Part shown: positions 1-42,471 of the stretch, one piece after another
How the letters are laid out: every line of letters starts with the position of its first letter
Numbering within the stretch: the first letter of the stretch is position 1
Source of the DNA: Gluconacetobacter liquefaciens
GTDB lineage: Bacteria > Pseudomonadota > Alphaproteobacteria > Acetobacterales > Acetobacteraceae
Assembly (NCBI RefSeq): GCF_003350405.1
Contig: NZ_QQAW01000002.1
Location: 186,001 to 250,000, forward strand
Length of the DNA: 64,000 bases
Direction: 5' to 3'
Made by a program: the position numbers and the translations under genes
The notes under the pieces: model-generated
The model's input: only the letters and a program-made list of their open reading frames with translations
Told to the model about the DNA's origin: nothing
Database searches by the model: none

Positions 1-1
1 G

Positions 2-6216: not shown

Positions 6217-6255
6217 GGTGGGCCCTGTCTGACTATGGGTATGGAAGGCGGGCTT

Positions 6256-7365
6256 CTAACGCTCTCGGGCGCCGAGGGCAAGGTTGGGCGCGGATTCAGC
6301 GGCGAGTTTGTGGCGGCCGCCTGCCGGATCGCGGACCATGGGGCCGTCTTCCCCGGCTTCCAGATAGTCCGGCCCCAGCGGCACCTTGCCGTGGCCGCCC
6401 GGAATGTCGAGCGTGTAGGTGGGCCATGCGAGGCCGGTCACCCGGCCGCGCAGGCCCGCCAGCAGGCGCTGGCCCTCGGCGATCGGCACATGGAAGCGCG
6501 CGGTGCCGGGGGCGGGGTCGAGCTGGTGCAGATAATAGGGCTTTACCCTGGCCTCGACCATCGCGCGGAACAGTCCTTCCAGCGCCGCCACGCTGTCATT
6601 GACGCCGCGCAGCAGGACCGACTGGCCCAGGATGGGGATCGCCCGTGCCTGGATGCGGCGCAGGGCCGCGCGGGCGGCCGGGGTGAATTCGCTGGCATGG
6701 TTGGCGTGCATGACCACCCACATCGCGCGGTCGGTCTGCATCGCATCGGCCAGTTCGTCGGTGATGCGGGCGGGGTCGGCGACGGGTACGCGGCTGTGGA
6801 TGCGGATCGTCGTGACGTGGGGCATGGCGTCGAGCGCCTGGATGATCTGGCGCAGGCGACGGGGGGAGAGCATCAGCGGGTCGCCGCCGGTGAGGATCAC
6901 CTCGCGGATGGCGGGGTGGTCGCGCAGCCAGTCCAGCGCGCGGGCCAGGGCGGCATCGTCCAGCACGCCGCCATCGGGGCCGACATGTTCGCGCCGGAAG
7001 CAGAAGCGGCAATAGAGCGGGCAGACCAGCAGGGGCTTGAGCAGCGCGCGGTCGGCGTAGCGGTGGACGATACCGGGCACCGGCGACAGGGCGTCGTCGC
7101 CGATCGGGTCCGCGTGTTCATGGGGGACGACGGCCAGTTCGGCGGCATCGGGGATGACCTGCAGGCCGATCGGGTCGTCCGGCCGTTCGATCAGCGCGGC
7201 GAAGGCGGGGGGGATGGCGGTGGCATATTGCCGGGACACCTCTTCCAGCGCCGGGGCCGCATCCGGAGGGACCAGCCCGGCGGCGACCAGTGCGGGGATG
7301 TCGCGCAGCGTCCGGCCCGTCGGCGGGGTGAAATCGTCCTGGGGATGGTTGACCGATCGTGTCAT
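6256..7365 (-). CDS. epmB: EF-P (R)-beta-lysylation enzyme EpmB / lysine 2,3-aminomutase family
   Basis: 369 residues, a PLP- and radical-SAM-dependent enzyme. The 4Fe-4S/SAM motif is CPLYCRFC (Cys115, Cys119, Cys122), the glycine-rich SAM-binding stretch 'ILTGGDPLML' follows, and the PLP-binding lysine motif 'IPGGHGKV' places the Schiff-base lysine at residue 327. The family converts L-alpha-lysine to beta-lysine. Its position between efp and epmA, and its short length without the extra C-terminal domain of clostridial KamA, argue for the EF-P pathway enzyme and not a catabolic aminomutase. It is divergent from epmA with a 47-bp shared promoter region. Confidence 0.9.
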   Translation of the reverse strand: MTRSVNHPQDDFTPPTGRTLRDIPALVAAGLVPPDAAPALEEVSRQYATAIPPAFAALIERPDDPIGLQVIPDAAELAVVPHEHADPIGDDALSPVPGIVHRYADRALLKPLLVCPLYCRFCFRREHVGPDGGVLDDAALARALDWLRDHPAIREVILTGGDPLMLSPRRLRQIIQALDAMPHVTTIRIHSRVPVADPARITDELADAMQTDRAMWVVMHANHASEFTPAARAALRRIQARAIPILGQSVLLRGVNDSVAALEGLFRAMVEARVKPYYLHQLDPAPGTARFHVPIAEGQRLLAGLRGRVTGLAWPTYTLDIPGGHGKVPLGPDYLEAGEDGPMVRDPAGGRHKLAAESAPNLALGARER

Positions 7366-7412
7366 CGGCTGGCTCTACTCGACCGGTCTTCGTCCCGCAA
7401 CAGGAGTCCTTC

Positions 7413-8459
7413 ATGACCGACGGCGGCGGTTCTGCCCCTTTTTCCGCGCCGGATTGCGACCCCGACCGCATTGCCGGGCGGCTGCCGCTGCTGCGGCGGC
7501 GGGCGCTGGTGGCGCGTGGGGTTCGCGCCTTCTTCGATGCGCGGGGCTATCTGGAGGTCGATACGCCTTATGCGGTGCCGACGCCGGGCGAGGAAGTGCA
7601 CCTGAAGGTATTCCGCACCGAACGGCGGCATCATGACGGCACCCGCGAGGCGCTGTTTCTGCACACCAGCCCCGAATTCGCCATGAAGCGGGTCGTCGCC
7701 GCGACCGGGCTGCCGGTGTTTCAGATGGCGCGGGTCTGGCGCAACGAGGAGGGCAGCCATCTTCATGCTGCCGAATTCACCATGCTGGAATGGTATCGGC
7801 CCGGTGCATCGCTCTCGGCGCTGATGGACGAGACAGAGGCGCTGATGCGCGCCGTGCTGCCGCCGGTGCTTGCGCCGCCCGGCGGGTTGGCGGACTCCGT
7901 GCCGCTGCGGGTCGATGGGCCGTTCGAGCGCCTGACGATGCAGGAGGCCTTTGCCCGGCATGCGGGGGTGGACCTGCTGCCGACCGAGGGCGATGCCGGC
8001 GCGCTGGCCATGGCCGCAGGGTGTGCCCTACGGGATGGCGAGACGTGGGAGGATCTGTTCTTCCGCCTGCTGATGGAGCGGGTGGAGCCGGCGATCGGCC
8101 GGGATCGCCCGACATTTCTGACGCACTGGCCGGCCAGTCAGGCGGCGCTGGCGCGCCGCGATCCGGATGATCCGCGCACGGCGCTGCGTTTCGAGCTTTA
8201 TGCCGCCGGCATGGAACTGGCGAATGCGTTCGAGGAACTGACCGACCCGGTCGAGCAGCGCCGGCGCTTCGTGGACGACCGGACGCGACGGGCGGCGCTG
8301 TATGGCGCCGTGCCCGAACTGGACTGGCCGATGGACGAGGCGCTGCTGGCGGCGCTGGCGCATCTGCCGCCTTGTGCGGGCATTGCACTGGGATTTGATC
8401 GGTTGGTCATGTTGGCGGCGGGGACGGCCCGCATAAATGACATTTTATGGCTGGCCTGA
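7413..8459 (+). CDS. epmA: EF-P lysine ligase EpmA (PoxA/GenX, truncated LysRS paralogue)
   Basis: 348 residues from the chosen ATG at 7413, which has AGGAG six bases upstream; the frame stays open to 7359, but that longer start lacks a ribosome site. It has only the class II aminoacyl-tRNA synthetase catalytic core: motif 2 ('VWRNEEGSHLHAAEFTMLEWY', in part) and motif 3 ('GIALGFDRLVML'), with no N-terminal anticodon-binding domain as in LysRS. EpmA activates beta-lysine made by EpmB and transfers it to the EF-P lysine. Gene order efp-epmB on the minus strand and epmA on the plus strand supports the assignment. Confidence 0.93.
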   Translation: MTDGGGSAPFSAPDCDPDRIAGRLPLLRRRALVARGVRAFFDARGYLEVDTPYAVPTPGEEVHLKVFRTERRHHDGTREALFLHTSPEFAMKRVVAATGLPVFQMARVWRNEEGSHLHAAEFTMLEWYRPGASLSALMDETEALMRAVLPPVLAPPGGLADSVPLRVDGPFERLTMQEAFARHAGVDLLPTEGDAGALAMAAGCALRDGETWEDLFFRLLMERVEPAIGRDRPTFLTHWPASQAALARRDPDDPRTALRFELYAAGMELANAFEELTDPVEQRRRFVDDRTRRAALYGAVPELDWPMDEALLAALAHLPPCAGIALGFDRLVMLAAGTARINDILWLA

Positions 8460-8570
8460 CGCCGGGATGGGTTGAAATATTTGTAATTTCGTCCCCAATT
8501 CGTACGTCATGGCCATGGTGCTACGTTAACGCCCTGATAAATTCTGTCCTGTAGATCGGTAACCCGGATC

Positions 8571-9011
8571 ATGAAATACCTCTCGCTCCTACCGCTGGCT
8601 GCCCTGCTCGCCCTGACGGCGTGTGAGGTTCCCTCTCCCGAGCAGCGGAAGCTGCTCAACTCGATGGTTGGCCGGGGTGAGGTGGACGTGATCCGCACCT
8701 TCGGCGTGCCCACGCGCTCGTATGAGGCCCAGGGTCATAATTTCCTGGCCTATATCGACAGCGAGACCAACTACTCGCCCGGTGCCGGCGGCTGGGGCTG
8801 GGGTTGGGGGGGTGGTCCCGGCTGGGGCGGCGGCTGGGGTGGTTGGGGCGGTGGCTGGGGAGGCGGCTGGGGTGGTGGCTGGGGCGGCCCCGGTTGGGGC
8901 GGCGGCTGGGGTGGCATGGGCGGCACCGTCTACACCAGCACCTGCCAGACGACGTTCGAGATTATCGCCGGCCGCGTATCGGGCTGGACGATGCGCGGGG
9001 ATGGATGCTGA
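8571..9011 (+). CDS. Small outer-membrane-type lipoprotein with Gly/Trp-rich repeat insert
   Basis: 146 residues. The N-terminus ends in a lipobox, 'LTAC', with Cys18 as the lipidation site. Residues ~19-65 ('MVGRGEVDVIRTFGVPTRSYEAQGHNFLAYID', in part) look like the start of a small BamE/SmpA-like fold in which a 'G..ext.v...fG.Pt' pattern is common. Residues ~67-118 are a low-complexity insert of GGW and WGGG units, coded by near-repeated GGCTGGGGT-type DNA. The tail ('TCQTTFEIIAGRVSGWTMRGDGC') resumes an ordered sequence with two cysteines. Possible envelope anchor; function unknown. Followed 62 bp later by another lipoprotein gene. Confidence 0.7.
   Translation: MKYLSLLPLAALLALTACEVPSPEQRKLLNSMVGRGEVDVIRTFGVPTRSYEAQGHNFLAYIDSETNYSPGAGGWGWGWGGGPGWGGGWGGWGGGWGGGWGGGWGGPGWGGGWGGMGGTVYTSTCQTTFEIIAGRVSGWTMRGDGC
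8788..8922 (+). repeat. Short tandem-like GGCTGGGG/GGTGG coding repeat
   Basis: Inside the lipoprotein gene the DNA is made of degenerate 6-9-bp units with almost no A and few C, alternating GGC/GGT glycine codons with TGG. It encodes the Gly/Trp-rich insert. Such repeats are prone to slippage, so copy number may vary between strains. Confidence 0.8.
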
Positions 9012-9073
9012 TCGCCGCCCGCTGAGGCGGCATGACGACGGGGTGGCGCTGGTTCGCCCCGCGAGGGGGTGGA

Positions 9074-9739
9074 ATGCGTGTGCCGCGCGGTGTGATGGCC
9101 TGCCTAATGGCGTGTTCGGTCGTGGCGTGTGCGCCTGCCTCGCGGCAGGACGCCTTTCTGGTGCGCGGCGACAGCCGGGCGGCGGCCATTCCCACTCTTT
9201 CGGTCGAACATAGCTACACGCCGGCGCTGGATCATGGGCGGCCAGACAGTCAGGTGGCCTATGGTGCGCCTGACACGCCGGTCTATCGCGATCGGCCGCT
9301 GAACGAGAGCCTGCGCGGCAGTATCGAACTGGCTGATTACACGCGGGCTCTGGATCTCACCGGGATGATGGCGCCATTGCGTGAGGCCGGGCCGTTTACC
9401 GTGTTTGCCGTGCCCAACCTGCCGATGGAGCAGTTCGCGCATGCGTCCGCGCCCTCGGGCGGGATACCGGCCCCGGCGGTGCTGCGGCAGGCGCTTGCCT
9501 ACAGCATCGTGCGCGGTGCGTATCCGGCGGAGCGACTGCGCCAACTGCTCGCCATGGCGCCCGGCAACCGGGTCAGCCTGCCGACGCTTGCCGGCGGGAC
9601 GGTGTTGGTCGGGCGCGATGCGGCGGGCCGGCTGGTGTTGTCGGACGGGGCCGGGCAGGTAGCGCCGATCTGGATTGACGGCATGCCGCAATCCAATGGC
9701 GTGCTGTATCTGACCAGTTCGCTGCTGGCGCCTGCCTGA
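9074..9739 (+). CDS. Fasciclin-domain lipoprotein
   Basis: 221 residues from the ATG at 9074, preceded by a GAGGGGG stretch; the frame extends upstream to 9032, but the later start puts a clean lipoprotein signal in place (lipobox 'VVAC', Cys19). The body carries a FAS1-like domain: 'LADYTRALDLTGMMAPLREAGPFTVFAVPN' (in part) matches the conserved H1 region of fasciclin repeats, and 'PIWIDGMPQSNGVLYLTSSLL' matches the H2 region ('...ADI.ASNGVIHVID.VL'). Fasciclin proteins are adhesive surface proteins. It follows the Gly/Trp-rich lipoprotein on the same strand; the two may be co-transcribed. Confidence 0.7.
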   Translation: MRVPRGVMACLMACSVVACAPASRQDAFLVRGDSRAAAIPTLSVEHSYTPALDHGRPDSQVAYGAPDTPVYRDRPLNESLRGSIELADYTRALDLTGMMAPLREAGPFTVFAVPNLPMEQFAHASAPSGGIPAPAVLRQALAYSIVRGAYPAERLRQLLAMAPGNRVSLPTLAGGTVLVGRDAAGRLVLSDGAGQVAPIWIDGMPQSNGVLYLTSSLLAPA

Positions 9740-9774
9740 GCGCCATCGGCACGTGTTCTGCCCTCTGCCGGCTT

Positions 9775-10401
9775 TCAGGCGGCATCTATCGCCGCGTTCA
9801 TGGCACGCACGCCGGCCGCGGGCCCTTCGGGATGCGACCAGACGGCGCTGATCACCGCCAGGAAATCGGCACCGGCCCGTACCAGGGGCGCGCAGTTATC
9901 GGCCGTGATGCCGCCGATGGCCACGACCGGCAGTTCCATCATCGCGCTCCACCATGTCAGCAGTTCCACGGGAGCGCGGATGTCGGTTTCCTTGGAGACC
10001 GAGGGGAAGAATGCGCCGAACGCCACGTAATCCGCCCCGGCTTCGCCCGCGCGCATCGCCAGGTCGCGGCTGTCGTAGCAGGACACGCCCAGTTGCAATT
10101 GGTCGCCCAGCAGGGTGCGGGCGGCGGCGGCATCCATGTCTTCGCCGCCGACATGCGCGCCGTCGCAGCCGCTGCGACGGGCCAGGTCGGGTCGGTCGTT
10201 CAGGATGAAGGCGACGTCGCGTTCCTGTGCCACCGGGCGCAGGATGTCGATCGCGCGCAGGATCGTATCGTCGGGTACGTCCTTCAGGCGCAACTGCACG
10301 GCGGCGACCGGGCCGGCATCAAGGGCGCGTGCCAGATCCGGCGCGAACGCGACCGGGTCGAGGGCCGGGGGAGTGACGAGATAAAGCTGGCAATCATACA
10401 T
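9775..10401 (-). CDS. thiE: Thiamine phosphate synthase
   Basis: 208 residues from the ATG at 10401. A TIM-barrel enzyme that joins HMP-pyrophosphate and thiazole phosphate to make thiamine monophosphate. Visible motifs are 'QLRLKD', '[10 protein letters not shown]', 'GAHVGGEDM', '[13 protein letters not shown]' and the phosphate-binding 'AIGGITADN'. The open frame extends 91 codons further upstream, but that part does not resemble the family and crosses a region with no conserved sequence, so I reject it. No TPP riboswitch was seen in the 44 bp upstream. A small uncharacterised gene lies upstream on the same strand. Confidence 0.93.
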
Positions 10402-10445
10402 CGTCCCACGATCATACGGTGCCGCGCGGCGTGATGACAGGGGGA

Positions 10446-10883
10446 TCAGGGACGTATCGGCGGGTGATCGGTGTCGAAAAGACAGGCACGCAACCGTTCG
10501 GGTGACGGGGCGGGCCCGACCACGCAATGGGGCGGCCGGTGGTGCAGGCAGGTCGCATCCAGCGATCGGGCCAGCAGATTGATCGTATCCGCCTGGCGCC
10601 CGGTGCCGTGCAGCACGATATGGCGCAGGCCCAGCCCCAGTGCTTCTGCGGCGCGGCCGGCAGCCGTGCCGCAATCGAGGAAGGCGGGAAAAGTGAAGCC
10701 GGTTTCAGCCAGCAGCGCGTGCCACCAGGCGGGGCCCATGAAACAGCCTGCATCGGCCGGCGACAGAAGGACGCAGCCCGGTGTGTGGGGCGTTTCGTGT
10801 GTGCGCAGCACGGCCAGAACAGCGCGGATCTCCACCGCCGAGGCGACGACGAAGACGCGCGGTGGGGGCGGGGGGTGGATCAT
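10446..10883 (-). CDS. Uncharacterised 145-residue protein upstream of thiE
   Basis: I do not recognise this family. The protein starts with a Pro run ('MIHPPPPPR') followed by an alternating hydrophobic stretch ('[17 protein letters not shown]'), has '[26 protein letters not shown]' (in part), which looks like a Rossmann-type beta-alpha unit, and ends with 'LRACLF'. The three cysteines are scattered. It lies 44 bp upstream of thiE on the same strand and is probably co-transcribed with it. A competing plus-strand frame covers the same bases, but this one has the more protein-like composition and an operon position. Confidence 0.5.
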
Positions 10884-11033
10884 TGCTTGACGTTGAACCG
10901 CGTGCGGGCGATCAGTTCAAGAGTGAGTGTCTGTCCGGAAAAGTGGATTGGCATGCGGACCATGCGGGTTATGCATGGCGGAACGCTGCCGATATGCAGA
11001 TCTGGACGGGGATTGAGACGTCGAGTGACGGGA

Positions 11034-11273
11034 ATGACGACCTTGGGGCATGTTGAAGGATCGGACAGCCCGGCTGCCTGGGGAACGAGTGATCCCGCAG
11101 ACCGGCTGGAGCAGGCATTGAACCGTATCGCCTTTGCTCTGGATCGTCGCCACGAGGCGGTGGCTGCGGCGCCTGATCTCCAGACGCTGGCAGCCAATAT
11201 CGATGCGTTGATCGCGCGGGTTCGCGACGTGCTGGGCCCGGACGAGGATATCGACGCGATGGGGGAGGGCTGA
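11034..11273 (+). CDS. Small coiled-coil protein upstream of zapA (ZauP/DUF4164-like position)
   Basis: 79 residues from the ATG at 11034 (upstream GACGGGA), ending 3 bp before zapA. Residues ~20-70 ('DRLEQALNRIAFALDRRHEAV', 'LAANIDALIARVRDVLG') are amphipathic helices predicted to form coiled coils. In several alphaproteobacteria a small coiled-coil gene sits directly upstream of zapA and its product (ZauP in Caulobacter) helps ZapA focus the FtsZ ring. I infer a similar job from position and composition; sequence similarity was not tested. The frame is open further upstream, but only this portion has a fitting start and length. Confidence 0.7.
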   Translation: MTTLGHVEGSDSPAAWGTSDPADRLEQALNRIAFALDRRHEAVAAAPDLQTLAANIDALIARVRDVLGPDEDIDAMGEG

Positions 11274-11276
11274 GCC

Positions 11277-11618
11277 ATGGCGCAGGTTACGGTCCGAATC
11301 AACGGCTATGCCTATGTCGTCGGCTGCAAGGACGGTCAGGAGCGGCATCTTCAGGCCATGGCGCTGGAGGTCGAGCGCCGGATCGAGCATATCCGCGCCA
11401 TCGGCGGCCAGAGCGGCGAGGCCCGGATCCTGGCGCTCGCGGCCTTGCTGATGGCCGACGAGATCCATGATCTGTCGGTCGAGAAGATGCCGGCGGATAC
11501 CGCGCGCCAACTGGCCGAGGGCCGGCAGGCGCGGGTGGAGAACGACCGCAGGCGCGAACAGCTTGCCCTGCTGGTCGAACGTGCCGAGAGCATTGCGGCG
11601 ACGCTCGAACATCCCTAG
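11277..11618 (+). CDS. zapA: Cell division protein ZapA
   Basis: 113 residues. The N-terminal globular domain starts 'MAQVTVRINGYAYVVGCKDGQERHL' (in part), the hallmark of ZapA, followed by 'ALEVERRIEHIR' and a C-terminal helix rich in Arg/Glu that dimerises. ZapA cross-links FtsZ filaments at midcell. The ribosome site (GGGAGGG) lies inside the end of the upstream small gene, so the two are probably translationally linked. It is followed directly by 6S RNA and the ygfA gene, an order also found in E. coli and many other Proteobacteria. Confidence 0.93.
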   Translation: MAQVTVRINGYAYVVGCKDGQERHLQAMALEVERRIEHIRAIGGQSGEARILALAALLMADEIHDLSVEKMPADTARQLAEGRQARVENDRRREQLALLVERAESIAATLEHP

Positions 11619-11627
11619 ATATGACGA

Positions 11628-11783
11628 GCGGGGCTGCCGGGTTCGTCAGGCAACTCAACCCCTGGGCCGATAAGCACTTCCTTAGGGAGCTGGCTCTGGC
11701 GTGATCCTGGTCATGTTATCTGGCGCCCACCTGCGTGAGCAGGTCCGGGAGGGCTGAAAGACCAACGGCCATGGTGGCTCCGC
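11628..11783 (+). ncRNA. ssrS: 6S RNA (RNA polymerase-binding regulator)
   Basis: The region between zapA and ygfA holds the expected 6S RNA. It contains CCCCTGGGCCGATAA (about 11657-11671), nearly identical to the 5' central-bubble strand of E. coli 6S RNA, and on the other side CGTGAGCAGGTCCGGGAGGG followed by CTGAAAGACC, which matches the 3' strand. A closing stem can form between 11628-11638 (GCGGGGCTGCC) and 11773-11783 (GGTGGCTCCGC), all pairs Watson-Crick or G-U. 6S RNA mimics an open promoter and sequesters housekeeping RNA polymerase in slow growth. Exact ends are estimates. The 3' stem arm runs into the ygfA coding start. Confidence 0.9.
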
Positions 11784-12367
11784 ACAGTCCTATTTCCGAT
11801 CTTCCCCCCTCTGATCCGCCCGCGCTGGTGGCGGCGAAAGCCGAGCTGCGCCGGCATTTGCGTGGTGTTCGCATGGCGGCGCCGGAGGCCGGTGCCGCGT
11901 TGTGCCGCCGGATGCGGGAGCATGTCCGCGCCGTGCTGACGCCGGGGAGGTGTGTCGCCGCCGTCTGGCCGTTGCCTGGCGAGGTGGATCTGCGCGGCCT
12001 GTGCGCCAGCCTGCATGGGGATGGTTACGGCGTGCTGCTGCCCCGGACGCCGCCGCGCGGACAGCCCCTGAGCTTCCATCGCTGGAGCCCGGAGGCGACG
12101 ATGTGCTCCGGTCGTTTTGGTACGGTGCATCCTGATGGTGAGGTCGCGCGGCCGGATCTGGTGTTCGTTCCGCTGCTGGGTTTTGACAGGCGGGGGTTCC
12201 GGCTGGGATATGGGGGCGGGTATTACGACCGCACGCTGGCGGAACTGCCTGGCGTGCCGGCGGTGGGCTTTGGCCTGTCGGCGCAGGAAGTGCCGGCGGT
12301 GCCTGTGGGGCCGTATGATGTTCCGTTGCCGGTGATCGTGACGGAACGGGACGTGATTCGGGTGTGA
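11771..12367 (+). CDS. ygfA: 5-Formyltetrahydrofolate cyclo-ligase
   Basis: 198 residues from the ATG at 11771. It carries the ATP/substrate motif 'GYGGGYYDRTLAEL' and 'LVFVPLLGFDRRGFRLG', diagnostic for the family, which makes 5,10-methenyl-THF from 5-formyl-THF in an ATP-dependent step. The gene follows 6S RNA as in most Proteobacteria. The start lies inside the predicted 6S closing stem; a GTG at 11828, just before the conserved 'AAKAELRRHLR', is an alternative that would avoid the overlap but has no visible ribosome site. The 3' end is followed by repeat copy A. Confidence 0.9.
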   Translation: MVAPHSPISDLPPSDPPALVAAKAELRRHLRGVRMAAPEAGAALCRRMREHVRAVLTPGRCVAAVWPLPGEVDLRGLCASLHGDGYGVLLPRTPPRGQPLSFHRWSPEATMCSGRFGTVHPDGEVARPDLVFVPLLGFDRRGFRLGYGGGYYDRTLAELPGVPAVGFGLSAQEVPAVPVGPYDVPLPVIVTERDVIRV

Positions 12368-33225: not shown

Positions 33226-33241
33226 TTGACCAAACGGTCAG
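33226..33241. promoter_or_regulatory. RutR-like operator upstream of preTA
   Basis: TTGACCAAACGGTCAG matches the RutR consensus of E. coli (TTGACCAnnTGGTCAA) at all but two fixed positions and is a near-palindrome TGACC-AAAC-GGTCA. RutR is a TetR-type regulator of pyrimidine degradation genes that senses uracil. It lies upstream of preT and overlaps the stop codon of the neighbouring phosphatase gene (33238-33240). No rutR gene is in the window. Confidence 0.7.
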
Positions 33242-34515
33242 AAAATTCTCGTGGGGTGCAGATCTGCGGCCGGACAGAGTGCCGTGCCCGCGCAGGTGCC
33301 GATGGGCAGGATGGTTGCGCCATTGCCCGTAAGGTCCGGTTGCCGGGCTGCTCGAAGCTGTTCGAGCCCCTGATGCATGATGACCGCGCGCACGACGCGG
33401 CTGCCATCCTTCAGCCGCCAGCGTTCGAAGGCCAGGGTCGTATCCGGTGCCGTGAAATCGGGCTGGTCGGCAAAGGCCCAGTCCAGGCCGAAGATGGCCC
33501 CCAGCGTGTCCAGGGTCGTATCGTGACCGGCGAACAGGACCAGCCGGGTGTTCGGCCCGATTTCGCTGTGATCGGGCAGGATGACCGGGCGGTCGGCCAT
33601 CAGGTCGATGATGGCGCGGGACAGCACCGCTCCGCGCGGGAAGGCGAAGGCAGGCTGGCGACGGGTGAGTGCCGCCGCATATCCGTGCGCGGGCAGGATT
33701 GTGGCCAGCAGGGCGGCGGCATCCGGCGTGCCCCAGGCCACCTGTTCCGGTGGCATGCCCTGGACGTAGGCCAGCATCATGTTCTCGGCGATGGTGGAGG
33801 CCAGGAGAGGGCCACCCTTGAGATGTGGCGTGCCATGGGAGGTGGACAGGGTCAGCCCTTCGGTCAGGCATGGGCCGGCCGCGCCTGTGCAGCCGTCGGG
33901 AGCGACGAGCGCCTGAAGGCGTGCCAGCGCGGCCTGGACGGGTTGCGGCCGGTGGTCGCGGTCACGGGCGACGGCCTGCGCCAGGGCATTGGTCGCGCGT
34001 GCTTCGTCCCGTTTCGCGGCGCCCGTGCCGACGGCATTGAAGAACGGATCGGTATGGCCTGCCGGTAGCGCATGGGACTGAAGGCCGCAACGGGGCGCAA
34101 GGTGTTCGGCCATGATCGTGCCGCTCTGGCGCGTGCGGTCGTCGGCGGCGTCCGCCCAGATCGCGACTATGCCGGGCGCGGGGCAGCCGGTGGCGGGGAG
34201 GAGGCCGAGCAGGCGGTATCGTTGACCCAGTGCATCCGTCATGGCTGCCAGCGCCGCACGGCCATGCTCGGTCAGTTGCCCCGGCGGGACCGGCCAGGCC
34301 GGCCAGTCGCGACCGGTCTGGGCTTTCAGCTCCGCCGGTGACCTGGTGGGGCTGCGGACGCCGTGGCGGGCGACCAGCACGATTTTCTCCAGCGTTGCAC
34401 CGGCCAGGGCCGAGTCCGGGGTGGCGGAGGTTTCGGTTGCCTGGGCGTTGCTGCCCAGCGTTGCGGCCAGAAGCAGGGTGGCGCCCAAGGCGCGGGCGAG
34501 GGAGGTACTCTTCAT
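33238..34515 (-). CDS. Histidine acid phosphatase (phytase/glucose-1-phosphatase-like), secreted
   Basis: 425 residues with a Sec signal peptide ('ALGATLLLAATLGSNAQA'). Active-site RHGxRxP motif is 'RHGVRSP' (Arg50, His51, Arg54) and the proton-donor HD pair is His331-Asp332 in 'FAGHDTT'. Members hydrolyse phytate, glucose 1-phosphate or other phosphate monoesters in the periplasm. Its ATG overlaps the stop of the upstream TonB receptor gene (ATGA), so the two are translationally coupled and likely act on the same phosphorylated substrate. Substrate not shown by sequence. Confidence 0.9.
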   Translation of the reverse strand: MKSTSLARALGATLLLAATLGSNAQATETSATPDSALAGATLEKIVLVARHGVRSPTRSPAELKAQTGRDWPAWPVPPGQLTEHGRAALAAMTDALGQRYRLLGLLPATGCPAPGIVAIWADAADDRTRQSGTIMAEHLAPRCGLQSHALPAGHTDPFFNAVGTGAAKRDEARATNALAQAVARDRDHRPQPVQAALARLQALVAPDGCTGAAGPCLTEGLTLSTSHGTPHLKGGPLLASTIAENMMLAYVQGMPPEQVAWGTPDAAALLATILPAHGYAAALTRRQPAFAFPRGAVLSRAIIDLMADRPVILPDHSEIGPNTRLVLFAGHDTTLDTLGAIFGLDWAFADQPDFTAPDTTLAFERWRLKDGSRVVRAVIMHQGLEQLRAARQPDLTGNGATILPIGTCAGTALCPAADLHPTRIF

Positions 34516-37037
34516 GGGAGGGTCGCCGAGAGATTGAAGAAGATGCTGCGGCCCGACAGGCGCCAGTACAGTGGCGCGCCATCGGGATAGCCGGCGGTGG
34601 CAGCCGACTGGTTGCCTGCGAAATCGCTGATCGCGTGGCTGTCGAACAGGTTGGCGATTTTCAGGCTGGGGGTCAGGTCGCTCATGAAGCCTGCCAGATG
34701 ATGGAAATGCCAGCCAAGTGCCAGGTCGGCGGTGGTGATGCTGTGGACGCGATACTGGTTGGCGAACGCGGTGTGGCCGTCGCTGTCGGTGGTGCTGTCG
34801 AGTCCCCAGTGATTGCCGACGAATTTGCCGATCAGCGAGAAATACGGGCCCTTGCCGTTGTCGTACAGCAGGCCGAAGGAGGCCAGTATGTTCGGGGTGG
34901 ACGCGATGCGCGTGTGGGTGTGCTTGTACTGGGCGTCGTTCAGGCTGTAATTGCCGTAGAGCGAGAAGCCGGCGCCCAGGGCGTATTGGCCTTCGATCTC
35001 AAGACCCTTGTAGATGGCGCCGCCGCTGTTGACCGAGGTGCTCTGGGTGCCGATGCCGGGGACCTTGATCTGGGCCGAGGCGATGTAGTTGGAGAAGTCG
35101 ATGTAATAGGCGTCGGCCGAGAGGGTCCAGCGCTTCTTCTGGAGGACGGTGCCGACCTGATAGTTCAGCGTGGTTTCCGGGCTGACGTTACCGACATTCT
35201 GTGTCTGGAACACGCTCATCGGCGGGGCGAGGAAGCCGCGTGCGATCTGGCCGTAGGCGCTCCAGCCCGGCAGGATGATCTGGTTGATCGCGATCGAGGG
35301 CTGCCATGACGTGAAGGTCTGCCGGTCGTTCAGAGGCACCTTGGTGGATTTGTTGATCGCGGCATCATAATCGCGGTGGAAGTAGGAATATTTGATGCCG
35401 GGCTTGACCGTCATGCCCTTCATGGGATGCCAGTCGAATTCGAGATAGGGCTGGATCGTCGTGTTCAGGTCCGAAATATTGTAGCTGTATGCGGAGCCTG
35501 TCTTGCCGGGTACCGGAATGCTGCCCTGGGTGAGATCGATGGCGTAGCTGTAGCGCCGGTCGTCCTGCACGTCGGCCCAGACGCCGAACAGGACGTCGCC
35601 GACCGGTGTGGCGGCACGAAAGCGCATCGTATCGCCATAATCGCGGAAGCCGGCGCGGGCGTATTTTCCGGGAATGTCGTGCTTGTAGGTGGCCAGTTTC
35701 TTGCCGGTGGCGGAATAGAATGTGACGCCGTTGGCGGAGGGGTCATTCTGGCTGGCGTCGGTCGATTCGGTGTAATCATGCACAAAGCCGTTGGTGTAGA
35801 GCTTGTTTTCGAATGTCAGCCACGGCGTGAGGCGGGTCTTGAGATTGACGTAGCTGAAATCGGACTGGTAGGTGCTGGGGTTGTAGCCGTAATAGCATTG
35901 CAGCGCGCGATCGAAACACAGCCCGTAATCATGGCCGTATTTCGCATATTCCGCCAGTGTGGCGCCTTGGGTGGTGTATTGCCATTCCTTGTCGTAGGTC
36001 GTCAGCAGGGTCAGGGTGGTCTGTTCGCCCAGTGCGATCACGTCCTTGAACAGCAGGTTGCTGCGCCGTTCTGCCGATCCTGTCAGGTAGCCGTCGGTTT
36101 CCTCATGCTGCATGTCCAGCACCATGGAGCCGAAACGGGTCTTGCCGCTGTCCAGCTCGATGCCTCCGGCACGAGTGTTGAAACTGCCGTAGGTGCCGTA
36201 AGGGGTGATGCCGAAATGCTTTGCCGGCTCGCGGGATTCGAAGCCCATCGTGCCGCCGAAGGTTGCGTTGCCGCTGGTCGATGCCGTGCCGGGACCGCGA
36301 TCGACCCGCACCTGCTCGAGAAAATGCGAGATGAAGAGAGAAGACGTTGTATGGCCCAGGTCGGTGGCATCGCCGAACGGGATGCCGTCGAACGTCATGT
36401 TGTACTGGCCGTCCTGAAAGCCGCGCAGGCTGATTTTCTCGGCCTTGCCCATGCCGGGGCCGTTGGGATTCTGCGACCAGACGCTCGGCTGGAACTTGAT
36501 GATGTCGTCCACGCTGGCCAGCGGGATGATGTTGTTGGTGATGAAGCGTTTCTGGATCACCGATGTGGGCTCGGTGATCGTCAGCGGTACGGTTGACGGG
36601 GCCAGGCGTTCGGCGCGGCGGATGACGGTGACTTCTTCCGCCTCCTTCCTGTCGGCGTGGGTGGGGTGGCCGGGGTGGGGAGGCGCACCTGCTGGACCTT
36701 CGATCAGCAGGCCACCGTCATGCTGCGGCACGGCATGCAGGCCGCTGCCGCGCAACAGGCGGGATGCCGCATCTTCCACGCTGAGCGTGCCGTCCACGGC
36801 CGGGGCGGAGAGGTTGCCGATATCGCTGCTGGCAAAAAGGATGTCGCGCCCGCTGATACGGGCCAGTTCTTCCAGCGATTCCGCCAGAGGTTGGGCGCGC
36901 AGGTGCACGGTGACGGGGGCGGGGGCGGGGGTGCCGGTGCCGGCCCGTGCCGGCTGGAAGCCTGCGATGGCGGTGGACATGACCAGGAGGGCGGCCAAAG
37001 TTTGCGGCGAAAGGTGCGGAGACGGCGAGCGTGACAT
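34512..37037 (-). CDS. TonB-dependent receptor with N-terminal signalling (STN) domain
   Basis: 841 residues. Signal peptide, then a secretin/TonB N-terminal (STN) domain (~45-115: 'VHLRAQPLAESLEELARISGRDILFA', in part), a plug ('ISLRGFQDGQYNMTFDGIPFGDATD' in part) and a 22-strand barrel ending 'RLSGRSIFFNLSATLP'. The STN domain contacts the FecR-type anti-sigma factor in the periplasm, and the gene follows sigma and fecR genes on the same strand. AGGA precedes the start. It should import a siderophore or other ligand; the coupled phosphatase suggests a phosphorylated one (inference). Confidence 0.92.
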   Translation of the reverse strand: MSRSPSPHLSPQTLAALLVMSTAIAGFQPARAGTGTPAPAPVTVHLRAQPLAESLEELARISGRDILFASSDIGNLSAPAVDGTLSVEDAASRLLRGSGLHAVPQHDGGLLIEGPAGAPPHPGHPTHADRKEAEEVTVIRRAERLAPSTVPLTITEPTSVIQKRFITNNIIPLASVDDIIKFQPSVWSQNPNGPGMGKAEKISLRGFQDGQYNMTFDGIPFGDATDLGHTTSSLFISHFLEQVRVDRGPGTASTSGNATFGGTMGFESREPAKHFGITPYGTYGSFNTRAGGIELDSGKTRFGSMVLDMQHEETDGYLTGSAERRSNLLFKDVIALGEQTTLTLLTTYDKEWQYTTQGATLAEYAKYGHDYGLCFDRALQCYYGYNPSTYQSDFSYVNLKTRLTPWLTFENKLYTNGFVHDYTESTDASQNDPSANGVTFYSATGKKLATYKHDIPGKYARAGFRDYGDTMRFRAATPVGDVLFGVWADVQDDRRYSYAIDLTQGSIPVPGKTGSAYSYNISDLNTTIQPYLEFDWHPMKGMTVKPGIKYSYFHRDYDAAINKSTKVPLNDRQTFTSWQPSIAINQIILPGWSAYGQIARGFLAPPMSVFQTQNVGNVSPETTLNYQVGTVLQKKRWTLSADAYYIDFSNYIASAQIKVPGIGTQSTSVNSGGAIYKGLEIEGQYALGAGFSLYGNYSLNDAQYKHTHTRIASTPNILASFGLLYDNGKGPYFSLIGKFVGNHWGLDSTTDSDGHTAFANQYRVHSITTADLALGWHFHHLAGFMSDLTPSLKIANLFDSHAISDFAGNQSAATAGYPDGAPLYWRLSGRSIFFNLSATLP

Positions 37038-37128
37038 CGGGGGAATCCTGTCTGTGGCGCCGGTTGCTCCGGCTTACAGGCGTGACGAACTCCCGCGACA
37101 GGTCCTCAATGTCTTTGAGCGTGTTTCA

Positions 37129-38022
37129 TCAAAGCTTCATAATGCGCAGGGTGGTGGTGCCTTCGACCCGCACGGGGAGGAGATGCGCCAGGGCGCGGGC
37201 GAAGCCTGCCATGTTGCCGGTATGGTAGAGCCCGCTGATGCGCAGAGTGCCGAGGCTTGGTGATATGATTTCCATTTTTATTTTGCTGTAGCGGTTCATT
37301 TCCATGACCGCTTCAGCCAGCGGGGTGTCGCGGAACAGGACGCGGCCCGTGCGCCATGCGATCAGTTCGTCGAGCCTGGGGTGGTCTATACAGGGGGGGT
37401 GGCCGGTGCGCAGGGTGAGACGTGTGCCGCTGCCGATCGTGATCGGGGTGGAGGATCCGGATGCCGGGAAGGCCGTCAGCGAGCCGGCGAGGACCGTGGC
37501 GGCCAGTCCATCATCGAGTACGCCGATGTCGAACTGACCCGCTGACGATGCGAGCATGCCGGTGGCCGTGGCCAGGCGCAGGGGGAATGCGCCGTTCGGT
37601 AGCGACAGGGCGATCCGCCCGGCGGACAGGCGCGCTTGACCGTGCGTGTTTGCTGGGGGGAGAATGAGCATGCTCTGGGTATCGAGCAGCAGGTCGGCGC
37701 CGCCCTGGAGGGTGCAGCGTCTGCGTTCGCCCGTCGCGGTGCGCAGGATCATCGCTTCCGCCGGTGTGCCGGGCAGGCCGAACAGGCTGGCCGCCAGCCC
37801 GATCCCGACGGTCAGGATTGCACGGCGCGAGGCCGGTCGTGACCGGCTGTACCCCAATGTGGCCGAGGAGGCCCAGACGCCGGACATCAGCGAGAACACT
37901 TCGCGGTGGCGGGGGTGTTCGTCCAGCCATGCGGTGAAACGGCGCTGTTCGTCTTCGGTGCAGTCTTCCGCGCGCAGGCGGGCGGACCAGCGGGCGGCGG
38001 TCTGGATGGTGCTGTCGCTCAT
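37129..38022 (-). CDS. FecR-family anti-sigma / surface-signalling regulator
   Basis: 297 residues from the ATG at 38022, which overlaps the sigma-factor stop (ATGA). N-terminal anti-sigma helix region (DUF4880: 'AARWSARLRAEDCTEDEQRRF', in part), one membrane helix ('AILTVGIGLAASLFGL'), then the periplasmic FecR domain ('LQGGADLLLDTQS') and a C-terminal part ('FRDTPLAEAVMEMNRYSKIKMEI', in part) that binds the receptor's STN domain. It holds the sigma factor until the receptor signals. A longer frame extends into the sigma gene and is not the real start. Confidence 0.9.
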   Translation of the reverse strand: MSDSTIQTAARWSARLRAEDCTEDEQRRFTAWLDEHPRHREVFSLMSGVWASSATLGYSRSRPASRRAILTVGIGLAASLFGLPGTPAEAMILRTATGERRRCTLQGGADLLLDTQSMLILPPANTHGQARLSAGRIALSLPNGAFPLRLATATGMLASSAGQFDIGVLDDGLAATVLAGSLTAFPASGSSTPITIGSGTRLTLRTGHPPCIDHPRLDELIAWRTGRVLFRDTPLAEAVMEMNRYSKIKMEIISPSLGTLRISGLYHTGNMAGFARALAHLLPVRVEGTTTLRIMKL

Positions 38023-38513
38023 GGCGGGTCGCTGTCCAGCAGGGCGGCCGTCAGGACGCATAGGGCCTTGCTGATCTGTTTTTCGACCGTGCTGACGCTG
38101 ACGCCCAGCTGGGTGGCTATAGTGCGGTAGGGCAGGTGGTCCAGCCGGTGCATCAGGAAGATGCGGGCGGTGCGGGTGTCGAGTGAGGCGAAGGCGGCCG
38201 AGAGCCGGGCCAGTTGCTGCCGGCCCAGCACGACCGCGTCGGGCAGGGGCATCGGGCAGGCGATGGCCTCTGTCTGGTCGGGAGGGAGGCTGACCAGGCA
38301 GTCGCGCTGTTCGCGCCGATATTCGTCGATGGCCAGGTTGCGCGCCGTGCGCAGCACGTAGGCCTCGGTATTGGCGATGCCCGTGTGGCCGCGTTCCAGG
38401 ATGTGGAGCAGGGCCGTCTGAAGCAGGTCCTCGGAATCGTGCCGCCCGGTCAGGCGGCGAATGCGGGCATGCAGAGATGCCCACCCGGTCTGCCGGATCG
38501 CCCAATCCGTCAT
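38019..38513 (-). CDS. ECF sigma factor, FecI-like
   Basis: 164 residues. Sigma region 2 ('DSEDLLQTALLHILERG', 'YVLRTARNLAIDEYRRE') and region 4 ('LPYRTIATQLGVSVSTVEKQISKAL') are complete and of the iron-starvation (FecI/PvdS) type. Preceded by GAGGGAC. It is the first gene of the sigma-fecR-receptor-phosphatase cluster and should drive transcription of the receptor gene in response to the ligand. Divergent from yfdX with about 220 bp between. Confidence 0.92.
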   Translation of the reverse strand: MTDWAIRQTGWASLHARIRRLTGRHDSEDLLQTALLHILERGHTGIANTEAYVLRTARNLAIDEYRREQRDCLVSLPPDQTEAIACPMPLPDAVVLGRQQLARLSAAFASLDTRTARIFLMHRLDHLPYRTIATQLGVSVSTVEKQISKALCVLTAALLDSDPP

Positions 38514-38734
38514 GTCCCTCGCGCCCTCGCCCCATTCTGCCGGTAGATGGCCTGTCCGGTATCGGGGCGGACCCTAGAGGCGTGGTCTCGCCCTGTCATC
38601 GGCGCGGGATAGGTAACGGATCGGTCTTCTTAAAAACTTCATGATCGCGGAGCGCATTCCTGCCCTGACTTGTTCTCAGGGCCGCAGCAACATTATGTTA
38701 AAAACACAGTTTCATGAGAAAAAGGATGTCTGAC

Positions 38735-39442
38735 ATGCGGATTATGGCTTCGTTGGCGGTTGTTGCAGCCCTTGGTGCCGTGCCCTCGCTGTCGCATGCC
38801 GCGTCGCTGCATGCGGCGTGGGAAAAGTTCAAAGCCGGTCGCGCCTTGCACCATCTTTCCGACGATGGAGAGCGTGCGCTGGCGGACATCCTGACCGCCC
38901 AGCAGTTTGTGGCGCAGGGCAAGGTGGATCAGGCCGTGCCGCCGCTTTATGATGCGCAGAAGCGTCTGGAAGCCGCCCGCAAGGCAGAGAAGCGCTTCAA
39001 TATAGCCGAGAGTGCGCTGCAGCCCGCGCCGCAGCATCCTGTGTCTTCGACGCATCAGCCGGTGACCACACCGACCGACTGGGTGCCTGTGGGCGGCGAA
39101 TTCGTGGCCAGCGACATTCTGGCGCCCGAGAAGAAGGCGGCGGTCGCAACGGCCAATGCCCAGCTCAAGGCGGGCGACAGCCAGGCGGCGGCCCAGACGA
39201 TGCAGGTTGTCGGCGAGGATGTGGATTTCATCGTCGCGCTGGCGCCGCTGGACCAGATGGAAGGCGCGGTGAACCGGGCGACCGTGTTCGTCGAAGGACG
39301 CCAGCCCAAGCAGGCGGCCGATGCGCTGAATCAGGCGCTGGACGGGATCGTCTTCGTCTCGCAGGATTTCGTTGAAACGCTGCCGTCGGCTTCGGGCAAG
39401 GCTTCCGCGCCGGCGGCTGCTGCTGCGCCGGCCACGAAATAA
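38735..39442 (+). CDS. yfdX: YfdX-family periplasmic protein
   Basis: 235 residues from the ATG at 38735, which has AAAGGA eight bases upstream; ATGs at 38714 and 38726 are alternatives. Signal peptide 'MASLAVVAALGAVPSLSHA', then an all-helical body with 'AAWEKFKAGRALHHLSDDGERALADILTAQQ' (in part) and 'FVEGRQPKQAADALNQALDGIVF' (in part), characteristic of YfdX. The E. coli gene is in the EvgA acid-resistance regulon, and the Salmonella protein has been reported to affect antibiotic sensitivity; mechanism not known. An Ala/Pro-rich tail ends the protein. Confidence 0.82.
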   Translation: MRIMASLAVVAALGAVPSLSHAASLHAAWEKFKAGRALHHLSDDGERALADILTAQQFVAQGKVDQAVPPLYDAQKRLEAARKAEKRFNIAESALQPAPQHPVSSTHQPVTTPTDWVPVGGEFVASDILAPEKKAAVATANAQLKAGDSQAAAQTMQVVGEDVDFIVALAPLDQMEGAVNRATVFVEGRQPKQAADALNQALDGIVFVSQDFVETLPSASGKASAPAAAAAPATK

Positions 39443-39578: not shown

Positions 39579-40028
39579 GTGCAGGGGCAGGACGCGTGCA
39601 GGATAGAGCGGTCGGGGCCTGGCCGCTGGATGGTCGCCCTGTTCGTGCTGTGCGGCTATCTCGGCCTGCTGGGCATTCAGGCGCATGCGCTGCCCGGCGA
39701 GATGCCGCGTGCCACGCTGGAACGTCTGGCGGGCATCCATCTGGCCGCGCCGTCCCTGTCTGCCGTCTGTGACGACATGCCCGGAATGGCGATGGCCGGC
39801 ATGCCGTGTCCGAGCGATCGGTCGCATGACCAAGTGCCGGATCATGATGCCTGTCCGCTCTGCCCGCTGTTGCATCTGTCATTGGTCGTACTGCCGGTTG
39901 TGCTGGCGGCGATCTTCGTGCTGCATCGGCTGGCGCGGGTGCGCTACAGCCCGGCCCGGCCCCGCGCGCCGCCTGTGCGCCGGGCCCTGTTGCGGCCGCC
40001 GGCCATCGGACCACCGAGAACAATCTGA
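39579..40028 (+). CDS. DUF2946-family protein upstream of copper receptor
   Basis: 149 residues, GTG start (an ATG at 39630 is possible). One membrane helix near the N-terminus ('MVALFVLCGYLGLLGIQAHA'), a metal-rich loop with Met, His and Asp ('CDDMPGMAMAGMPC', 'SHDQVPDHDACPLCPL') and a second helix. The CPLC motif and Met-rich loop are typical of DUF2946, whose genes often precede TonB-dependent copper receptors. It probably binds or senses copper in the periplasm or membrane; function not proven. Followed 301 bp later by oprC. Confidence 0.72.
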   Translation: MQGQDACRIERSGPGRWMVALFVLCGYLGLLGIQAHALPGEMPRATLERLAGIHLAAPSLSAVCDDMPGMAMAGMPCPSDRSHDQVPDHDACPLCPLLHLSLVVLPVVLAAIFVLHRLARVRYSPARPRAPPVRRALLRPPAIGPPRTI

Positions 40029-40329: not shown

Positions 40330-42471
40330 ATGACAGATCATCTCCGGTCTTCCTGGATCGGTGCCGTGGCGTGCGGCTGGACCGTCGCCTGCGGGCTGGC
40401 CGTCGCCCCGGCCTGGGCGGATACGACTATGTCCGCGCCTCTTTCTCAGTCCGACTCCCGACCGTCTGCGACGGCGGGGGAGTTCATCACCGTCAACGGT
40501 GTGCGCCGGCCGACGGGGCATAGTGCGGATACGGCTGCCCTGCTTTCGCATGCCCTGGGGTTCAGCAGTTACGCGGCAGGTGGGGTTTCGGCGCTGCCGG
40601 TGCTGAACGGCATGGCCGACGACCGTGTCGCGACTTTCGTGGACGGCATGCGGATCGCTTCGGCCTGTCCCAACCACATGAATCCGGCGATGTCCTATAT
40701 CGACCCGGACAGCGTGGAGTCGGCGGTGGCGACAGCGGGGATTACGTCCGTCAGTGAAGGCGGAGACAGTACCGGGGGTACCGTTTCCGTCGAGCGGCGG
40801 GACCCGCAATTCGCCAGGGCGGGGAAGAGTCTCGTGACTGGCCGGATGCGTGGGGATTATCGCAGCAATGGCGGCGGGTCGGGTGCCTCCGGATCGGTGA
40901 CGGTGGCGAACGATCTGCTGAGCCTGCGTTATACCGGGTCCTACAGCCATGCCAGCGATTATCGTGCCGGTGGCGACGGGCCGCGTGTACGTTCGACCAG
41001 CTACCTGAGCTTCAACCATGCCGTTACGCTGGGTGTGCATAAGGACAATCATCTGCTGGCCCTGACGGTGGGACAGCAGGACATTCCTTATGAAGGCTTT
41101 CCCAACCAGTATATGGACATGACCAATAACCGGTCGACCTTCGTGAATGGAAAATACAAGGGCGATTTCGATTGGGGCACGCTGGAGGCGCGTGGCTTCT
41201 GGCAGCGGGTCGATCATGTGATGGACATGATGTCGGACAAGGGGGGACATACTGCCTCGACCGGCATGCCGATGAATACCGACGCACGGACGGCGGGCTA
41301 TGCGATCAAGGCGACGATCCCGCTCGGCCTGAAGCATGAACTCGGCCTTGGCAGTTCGTTCGATCATAACGGGTTGAACGATTGGTGGCCGCCGCTTGTC
41401 GGCAGCATGATGATGGGACCGAATACCTATCACAACGTCAATGACGGCCATCGCGACCGGCTGGGCCATTATATCGAGTGGAAGGCGCAATGGCTGCCGC
41501 GCCTTTCCACCGAACTGGGAATGCGCAGCGATCTGGTGATGATGAATACCGGGCCGGTTTCACCCTATTCCTGGACCGGGATGATGAGCATGGCCGATGC
41601 CATGGCGGCGCAACGGTTCAATGCCTCTTCGCGCGGGCGTACCGATACCAATTTCGATGTTACGGCGCTGGTGCGCTGGCACCCGCTCGACAGCCTGATG
41701 ATCGAAGGGGGGTATGCGCGCAAGACGCGCTCGCCCAATCTTTATGAGCGCTATGCCTGGGGCCGGGGAGCAATGGCGAGCAGCATGATCGGCTGGTTCG
41801 GCGACGGCAACGGTTATGTCGGCAACCTGAACCTGACGCCGGAAATCGCCAACACCGCCAGCATGACGATGACGTGGCATGATCCGCGCGACCAGGCATG
41901 GCTGGTGAAAATCCAGCCGTACTACACCTACACCCACAATTATATCAATGTGATGCGGATCGGGGCGCTATCGAACGGCCTGTCGCAATTGCAGTTCGTC
42001 AACCACAATGCGCAGAGCTACGGCATCAACGGTTCGGCCTTTGCGCGCCTGTGGCGGAGCGACGCCTTCGGCACGGGCGAAGTGCATGCCAACCTCAATT
42101 GGGTGCGGGGCGAGGATCTGGTGACGCATTCCGGTCTTTATCACCAGATGCCGACCAACGGCACGATCGCATTGCACGAGACGTACGGGAACTGGACCGG
42201 ACGGGTCGAGGTTACGCTGGTCAAGGCCAAGGACACGGTGGACTGGCTGCGGCATGAGCCGCGCACGCCGGGTTATGCGCTGCTGGGGTTGGGGGGCAGC
42301 TATCGGTGGCGGAATCTGACGCTTGATGCCAGCATCGATAACGTCCTGGATCAGAAATATTACCTTCCGCTCGGGGGACTTTCGCTGGGGGATTACAAGG
42401 CGACGGGGGTGCTGGGGCCGCTGCCGGGGTTGGGGCGATCCTATAATCTCAGCCTGACAGCGACATTCTGA
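40330..42471 (+). CDS. oprC: TonB-dependent copper receptor, OprC/NosA family
   Basis: 713 residues with signal peptide and plug-barrel architecture. The copper-binding residues of OprC are conserved: Cys113 and Met117 in 'ACPNHM' (the CxxxM motif) and His296-x-Met298 in 'HVM', and there are many further Met and His residues in the extracellular loops ('MDMMSDKGGH', 'SMMMG'). The barrel ends 'YNLSLTATF'. It binds copper with very high affinity and imports it with TonB energy. The DUF2946 gene upstream supports a copper role. Unlike the other two TonB receptors in the window, no STN domain is present. Confidence 0.93.
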   Translation: MTDHLRSSWIGAVACGWTVACGLAVAPAWADTTMSAPLSQSDSRPSATAGEFITVNGVRRPTGHSADTAALLSHALGFSSYAAGGVSALPVLNGMADDRVATFVDGMRIASACPNHMNPAMSYIDPDSVESAVATAGITSVSEGGDSTGGTVSVERRDPQFARAGKSLVTGRMRGDYRSNGGGSGASGSVTVANDLLSLRYTGSYSHASDYRAGGDGPRVRSTSYLSFNHAVTLGVHKDNHLLALTVGQQDIPYEGFPNQYMDMTNNRSTFVNGKYKGDFDWGTLEARGFWQRVDHVMDMMSDKGGHTASTGMPMNTDARTAGYAIKATIPLGLKHELGLGSSFDHNGLNDWWPPLVGSMMMGPNTYHNVNDGHRDRLGHYIEWKAQWLPRLSTELGMRSDLVMMNTGPVSPYSWTGMMSMADAMAAQRFNASSRGRTDTNFDVTALVRWHPLDSLMIEGGYARKTRSPNLYERYAWGRGAMASSMIGWFGDGNGYVGNLNLTPEIANTASMTMTWHDPRDQAWLVKIQPYYTYTHNYINVMRIGALSNGLSQLQFVNHNAQSYGINGSAFARLWRSDAFGTGEVHANLNWVRGEDLVTHSGLYHQMPTNGTIALHETYGNWTGRVEVTLVKAKDTVDWLRHEPRTPGYALLGLGGSYRWRNLTLDASIDNVLDQKYYLPLGGLSLGDYKATGVLGPLPGLGRSYNLSLTATF

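Follow-up and report, generated by a model that had tools for sequence, protein, structure and literature searches.

A 64,000-nucleotide stretch of the Gluconacetobacter liquefaciens genome (contig NZ_QQAW01000002.1, positions 186,001 to 250,000; hereafter the window) carries on its minus strand genes for an extracytoplasmic function (ECF) sigma factor, a FecR-like anti-sigma factor, a TonB-dependent receptor with an N-terminal STN domain and a histidine acid phosphatase. We consider it likely that this locus encodes a cell-surface-signalling system that is gated by phosphate starvation and serves an organic phosphate ester, the likeliest being an inositol phosphate (e.g. phytate). Phytate itself is a good guess at the ligand, no more. 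This reading draws on the gene content of the locus, the conserved pairing of receptor and phosphatase and the conserved geometry of the promoters. The features concerned, numbered from the first letter of the window, are as follows.

38019..38513, minus strand: ECF sigma factor, FecI-like (Pfam Sigma70_r4_2, 1e-14; Sigma70_r2, 1.7e-8)
37129..38022, minus strand: FecR-like anti-sigma factor (Pfam DUF4880, 1.3e-11; FecR, 5.2e-7), sharing an ATGA overlap with the sigma gene
34512..37037, minus strand: TonB-dependent receptor with an N-terminal STN domain (Pfam barrel, 5e-30; plug, 1e-10; STN, 1.5e-5)
33238..34515, minus strand: histidine acid phosphatase, AppA/phytase type (Pfam His_Phos_2, 8.7e-16)
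37084..37108, minus strand: predicted ECF-type promoter motif of the receptor-phosphatase pair, TGAGG-N16-CGTC, of conserved placement
37123..37140, minus strand: Pho-box-like element before the receptor (matrix score 17.0), which reads on the plus strand, reversed relative to the genes
38571..38598, minus strand: tentative sigma-gene promoter, TGACAG-N16-TAGGGT, read by eye
38625..38642, minus strand: Pho-box-like element upstream of the sigma gene (matrix score 18.6, reversed, shuffle p 0.003)

The sequence-only reading of this DNA had described the four genes as one coupled operon in which three are joined by stop/start overlaps. Open frames and Pfam confirm all four genes at these positions, and both ATGA overlaps exist (38019-38022 between sigma and fecR, 34512-34515 between receptor and phosphatase), but they make two coupled pairs, sigma-fecR and receptor-phosphatase, rather than three genes in a row. 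We rejected a simple four-gene operon because the 91-bp gap between fecR and the receptor (37038-37128) carries its own promoter motif. The gene set has the marks of FecI/FecR signalling. That is, an ECF sigma factor, a FecR-type anti-sigma factor (with a single hydrophobic segment at about residues 68-86, hydropathy peak 1.64) and a TonB receptor are encoded together, the receptor bears an STN region, and a predicted ECF-type promoter precedes the receptor. The STN match has an E-value of 1.5e-5, yet its 25.1 bits lie below the Pfam gathering score of 28.4, and it falls in a low-confidence part of the structure model.

The phosphatase is, judged from its sequence, of the AppA (histidine acid) type and nearer to phytases than to glucose-1-phosphatase. 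It belongs to PF00328 (histidine acid phosphatase, branch 2) at 58.7 bits against a cut-off of 23.6, with the RHGxRxP and HD motifs present; the catalytic motif RHG-x-RSPT (RHG, R54-S-P-T), R127 and H331-D332 are invariant in 23/23 aligned rows. Against the AppA phytase model (NF007552) it scores 218.1 bits (E 1.5e-64), short of the equivalog cut-off of 585, and against the glucose-1-phosphatase model 94 bits, short of 425. In the PDB, its best matches (lowest E 2.5e-49) are entries titled histidine acid phosphatase or phytase, and glucose-1-phosphatases appear at about 1e-17. The N-terminus resembles a signal peptide (this and the lipoprotein assignments below were made by eye).

The receptor yields less about its cargo. 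An AlphaFold model from 47 aligned rows reached a mean confidence (pLDDT) of 81.8, with the barrel modelled; an earlier one from 23 rows was poor (46.6). In the fold searches FecA and PqqU came first by Foldseek E-value and BtuB led by Z; since many receptors tie, we read no substrate from these searches, only 'TonB-dependent receptor'. A single-sequence search of the PDB returned no match, and a profile search gave distant matches only, with PqqU/YncD and FecA first. The siderophore-receptor model TIGR01783 gave 94.1 bits against a cut-off of 223.5. A count of conserved basic residues in the receptor (29 basic, 33 acidic) provided no argument.

The pairing of receptor and phosphatase is strongly conserved. 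Among 397 sampled Acetobacteraceae genomes, 57 had a phosphatase match and 29 a receptor with 65% identity or more; below these, no receptor exceeded 42%. In 29/29 of these genomes the phosphatase gene adjoins the close receptor, and in 26/29 the two overlap by 1-4 nt (24 of 25 computed, with phosphatase starts taken from open frames, plus L079 and L080 read by eye; L086, L088 and L090 have no overlap). A sigma gene stands at the same place in 19 of the 29, counting the window and one diverged Acetobacter locus, and these 19 also carry fecR. In the other ten, blastp found no sigma or fecR in the fetched stretch (E up to 1e-4; 1e-3), a search that could miss very diverged copies in Gluconobacter and Neokomagataea. 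By their named relatives, the loci with sigma and fecR fall to Gluconacetobacter, Asaia, Swaminathania and Acetobacter, and those without detected copies to Gluconobacter and Neokomagataea. The latter retain the receptor-phosphatase pair and a Pho-like element, their receptors lack the STN region (6/10 aligned, the rest by match ranges, with one Pfam check), and 6/10 of their phosphatases have a lipoprotein-like start.

The main Acetobacteraceae groups agree between the receptor and phosphatase trees. In Acetobacter, identity to the window's proteins is only about 33% for sigma and 22% for FecR but 65% for the receptor, a contrast that suggests separate gain or exchange of the signalling half in that genus. 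As a side observation, the receptor is split into at least two frames, with the phosphatase still open, in loci from Asaia, Gluconobacter and Neokomagataea (L090, L094, L097, L100, L101 and L102; in L090 fecR is split as well), reflecting either gene decay or assembly errors.

Promoter geometry is conserved as well. Of the 19 loci with sigma and fecR, 18 have the motif TGAGG-N16-CGTC in the fecR-receptor gap, the exception being Acetobacter. Its spacing is identical in all 18 and both ends are 100% identical, with only 40% identity in the N16 between them. A scan of the window's own genome gave 39 matches against 21 for the reversed control; the motif is too short to define a regulon alone, so we used only the placed, conserved instance. 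The hexamers of the tentative sigma-gene promoter are both kept in five aligned loci, from the nearest Gluconacetobacter group.

A plain E. coli pho-box consensus gave mostly chance-level matches before these genes, and the signal emerged with a matrix built from 20 boxes of pst, porin and phoB promoters. These boxes came from two genera, one of them Acetobacter (as is the tested locus L093), and were chosen by likeness to the consensus, with none taken from the tested promoters. With this matrix, all 29 loci show a match before sigma, or before the receptor where sigma is absent, at a mean score of 15.4, and the best of 1000 column-permuted matrices reached 7.4 over the same loci. Single-locus shuffle p-values are at most 0.037 in 28/29 and 0.066 in one. 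The genome's own pstS promoter gives 20.9, 17.6 and 14.6. For 174 control promoters the mean was 3.0, with a standard deviation of 6.4 and the upper tenth starting at 12.5; spurious open frames are among these controls, as are some fecR-receptor gaps with a box of their own. The element before the window's sigma gene has the top score in the 64 kb, where only three sites reach 12: two at these promoters and a third (38703-38720, score 12.5, opposite orientation) at the start of a divergent yfdX-like gene. Five order-1 Markov copies of the window held 0 or 1 such site each.

The receptor-side element overlaps the fecR stop and ends 14 bp upstream of TGAGG. This exact 14-bp gap recurs in 18/18 loci, where the box is 89% identical and the spacer 33%. 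In Acetobacter, a forward, classic Pho box precedes sigma in 4/5 loci, the fifth region being cut short. The sequence-only reading had overlooked three things: the Pho-like control, the promoter motif inside the locus and the forms of the locus that lack sigma and FecR.

From these features we infer a regulator, a ligand, a direction of transport and an enzyme activity. In phosphate-poor cells, a PhoB-type regulator acting at the box at 38625-38642 would raise transcription of sigma and fecR. The ligand bound by the receptor would be phosphorylated, an inositol phosphate (phytate, for example) being the likeliest, and the receptor's STN domain, as in other members of the family, would signal through FecR and free the sigma factor. 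Freed sigma would then turn on receptor and phosphatase from TGAGG-N16-CGTC, probably together with the same regulator at the box 14 bp upstream, such that starvation and ligand would both be needed. Finally, the receptor would take the ligand to the periplasm, where the AppA-type phosphatase could strip off phosphate for entry via Pst. The earlier proposal of a ligand-sensed importer for a phosphorylated compound is upheld in its outline by the phytase-near phosphatase, the conserved pairing and the phosphate-responsive-looking control regions; phytate as such stays inferential.

Several observations weigh against this reading. On the side of regulation, one control promoter in ten reached 12.5, a score that 4/29 test loci fail to reach (12.1, 11.4, 10.2 and 10.2), and for individual loci 2-13% of the 174 controls score as high. 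The fetched loci, which were picked around genes of this kind and total 1.86 Mb, hold sites scoring at least 12 at a rate of 7.9 per 64 kb, and distant receptor loci are mixed, with 6/22 upstream regions reaching 12. The boxes point the opposite way to pstS boxes (the best match is reversed in 26/29 loci), part of the conservation of the receptor-side box may be coding because it overlaps the end of fecR, and the 18 loci with box and TGAGG derive from only about three lineages. The TGAGG motif is lacking in the Acetobacter loci. On the side of function, the phosphatase lies far under the AppA equivalog cut-off (218 versus 585 bits), and FecA, an iron-citrate importer with this signalling design, ranks high in both receptor searches. 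The closest receptor paralogue in the same genome (38% identity) has no phosphatase among its listed neighbours and scores 15/19 with a Fur box. Moreover, a Zymomonas receptor 73% identical to that of the window has no secreted phosphatase that we found nearby, only a HAD-type gene (named by eye).

In one rival reading the cargo is iron. The receptor could import an iron complex of a phosphorylated chelator (e.g. ferric phytate) under iron control, with the phosphatase destroying the chelator and thereby releasing the metal. Ferric phytate can support bacterial growth as the supply of iron, iron is the usual business of FecI/FecR/STN systems, the fold searches place FecA near the top, and the sigma regions of two relatives (L078, L084) hold a Fur-like match reached by 3% of shuffles. 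Fur control of sigma, typical of iron members yet not required of all, was not detected in the window, however: the best match before the sigma gene covers 10/19 positions and is reached by 68% of shuffles, and the best alpha-type iron box there scores 7, reached by all shuffles. By comparison, 15 other sigma genes were found in 14 loci fetched from the same genome, and 6 of them have a Fur-like match of at least 12/19 (some of the six share one divergent region). None of these six has a Pho-like score of at least 12; three other sigma genes do. The window has Pho-like boxes instead, its receptor stays well under the siderophore-receptor cut-off, and homologues of the phosphatase sit in pst clusters, all of which makes an iron-chelate system quite improbable. 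Retaining phosphate-ester uptake and changing only the trigger is somewhat less far-fetched, albeit still unlikely. Many OmpR-family regulators bind 11-bp tandem repeats, and a box that is reversed and 14 bp upstream of -35 might be bound by one that does not respond to phosphate starvation. Yet only pst, porin and phoB promoters went into the matrix, the genome's own pstS promoter scores well with it, and Acetobacter has the classic forward box before sigma.

The choice of ligand is less settled. Another phosphate ester (a sugar phosphate, a phosphomannan fragment or a nucleotide), with phytate incidental, is a serious candidate that we place somewhat below an even chance; it differs from the phosphate-gated phytate reading in the ligand only. 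Histidine acid phosphatases can have a broad substrate range, and the receptor subfamily also accompanies other phosphatases. Against this, the phosphatase resembles phytases more closely than it does glucose-1-phosphatase, and the genome's second histidine phosphatase forms a single protein with a phosphoinositide phospholipase C. That the phosphatase is a mere passenger of a receptor importing something unrelated seems very remote: the Zymomonas locus and the 12 phosphatase-free loci described below would fit, whereas the 29/29 close pairs, the short overlap in 26/29 and the association of one receptor family with three unrelated phosphatase families do not.

These associations come from a wider survey of the best 80 of 201 receptor relatives in named genomes, close Acetobacteraceae included. 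A phosphatase lies within 5 kb of the receptor in 68/80 loci, namely a histidine phosphatase in 47, a PAP2 enzyme in 13 and a type I phosphodiesterase in 8 (families confirmed by Pfam on representatives). The histidine phosphatase mostly adjoins the receptor, with one 4.7 kb upstream (L190); the phosphodiesterases are about 1.8 kb away where measured. In L158 the phosphatase is split in two frames. The remaining 12/80 loci have none of the three kinds searched for, and four of them are contigs under 6.5 kb (L191, L193, L206, L217). Because one receptor family pairs with three unrelated phosphatase families, its gene neighbourhood argues that the cargo is a phosphate ester. The genera found belong to the alpha-, beta- and gammaproteobacteria.

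Phosphatase homologues without this receptor point to phosphate as well. Out of 28 phosphatase-bearing genomes without a close receptor, 10 loci were fetched, and in 10/10 the gene lies 2.4-4.5 kb from pstS; a Porin_O_P-type (phosphate-selective-porin-type) gene was recognised in 9/10. These pstS and porin assignments used sequence motifs, with Pfam run on one locus. In Zymomonas mobilis (L184, 7740-10130), the receptor is without STN and groups in the tree with two Gluconacetobacter receptors at moderate support (87/95) on a long branch, which suggests horizontal transfer. In Paraburkholderia and relatives, an OmpR-type response-regulator-like gene comes after the phosphodiesterase or PAP2 gene that neighbours the receptor (Pfam on one; loci L195, L198, L207, L208, L213, L219 and L220, also L199, L201, L204 and L214).

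Other signalling loci occur in the same genome. A second operon with an ECF sigma factor, a FecR-like protein and an STN receptor (L073, C14:26000-42000, 1-11933, minus strand) also encodes the fusion of phosphoinositide phospholipase C and histidine phosphatase, a GH92 glycosidase and a receptor-like frame (by eye). No Pho-like box precedes its sigma gene, and it could serve yeast mannoproteins or glycosylphosphatidylinositol (GPI) anchors, a guess on our part. A further operon (L233/L238/L239, C1, ~459000-466300) has a Pho-like box of 12.7 before sigma, a large STN receptor, another protein and a PF04185 phosphoesterase, and is perhaps a second phosphate-related member. Two sigma/fecR/receptor loci (L224/L236 on C17 and L232/L237 on C6) have Pho-like boxes before sigma, at 18.7 and 15.6. 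Next to the window's sigma gene, the divergent yfdX-like gene (38714-39442, plus strand) recurs beside sigma in 4/7 other Gluconacetobacter loci (L075-L078) and one Acetobacter locus (L093). Beyond it lie a small protein (39579-40028, plus strand) and a second TonB receptor (40330-42471, plus strand) that matches models of haem and copper receptors weakly.

Known systems supply precedents for each part. The sequence-only reading had said that FecI/FecR systems normally serve iron or haem. This is true in general, but phosphate-controlled signalling is known, as excerpts of two papers describe (PMC4971064; PMC8115612). In the first, the Pseudomonas aeruginosa PUMA3 system (VreA/VreI/VreR), an ECF sigma/anti-sigma/receptor-like operon, is expressed in low phosphate via PhoB, and its sigma-dependent promoters need PhoB plus the ECF sigma, with a pho box upstream of -35. 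PUMA3 is the closest regulatory precedent, sharing the types of sigma and anti-sigma gene beside a receptor-like one; the Pho-box-like elements before the window's sigma gene and before the predicted -35 of the receptor may be counterparts of its pho boxes. Unlike our receptor, which has a full barrel by Pfam and in the model and a phytase-like phosphatase beside it, VreA is described there as lacking a barrel and thought to be non-transporting. The PUMA3 regulon comprises secretion systems and secreted proteins rather than receptor and phosphatase, and the Pho-like box is here reversed and ends 14 bp before -35. In the second paper, Flavobacterium johnsoniae (Bacteroidetes) has a receptor gene adjoining a phytase gene, both induced by phosphate depletion, and other phosphate-induced loci hold ECF sigma or FecR-like genes; the phytase is of the PF02333 family, the receptor is of another type, and sigma/FecR are listed apart from the phytase pair. 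Excerpts also report that PhoB of Caulobacter crescentus controls TonB receptors and a phytase, with no sigma/anti-sigma signalling mentioned in that portion (PMC11208175), and that in Citromicrobium a receptor adjoins a phytase (PMC3400609). The portions seen of PMC2996285, on a Caulobacter receptor in low phosphate, and of PMC9403785 hold nothing on this design, and the words phosphate, PUMA3, phosphatase and PhoB are absent from an iron-signalling review (PMC9249621).

The ferric citrate system (FecA-FecI-FecR) shares the gene types, STN domain, ECF-type receptor promoter and receptor fold, but here there is no Fur box above chance, and a phosphatase gene rather than iron transport genes follows the receptor. 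Similarly, AppA-type histidine acid phytases share the catalytic motifs and near whole-length similarity, whereas the present phosphatase stays under the equivalog cut-off and is coupled to a receptor and a signalling pair. Every element has a precedent; among the papers listed by our searches of the open-licence PMC literature we recognised no description of this locus, or of the combination with a transporting, signalling receptor, which here is likely phosphate-gated.

Phytate is a large phosphorus store in plant matter, a frequent habitat of acetic acid bacteria. Tentatively, and at just short of an even chance, the observations may be joined into a broader proposal. Acetic acid bacteria would have a class of organic-phosphate cell-surface-signalling systems, in which the receptor-phosphatase promoter is a coincidence detector needing both PhoB and a ligand-released ECF sigma factor. 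The signalling half would have been added, possibly twice, to an older Pho-controlled pair, and the receptor subfamily would be a general phosphate-ester importer with an exchangeable phosphatase (histidine acid phosphatase, PAP2 or type I phosphodiesterase). The phosphate-gated reading predicts a substrate class for a TonB receptor subfamily without a single-sequence PDB match. If true, FecI/FecR/STN signalling that includes a complete transporter would shift from iron to phosphorus, and a defined promoter would become available for joint tests of a starvation regulator and a sigma factor released by ligand.

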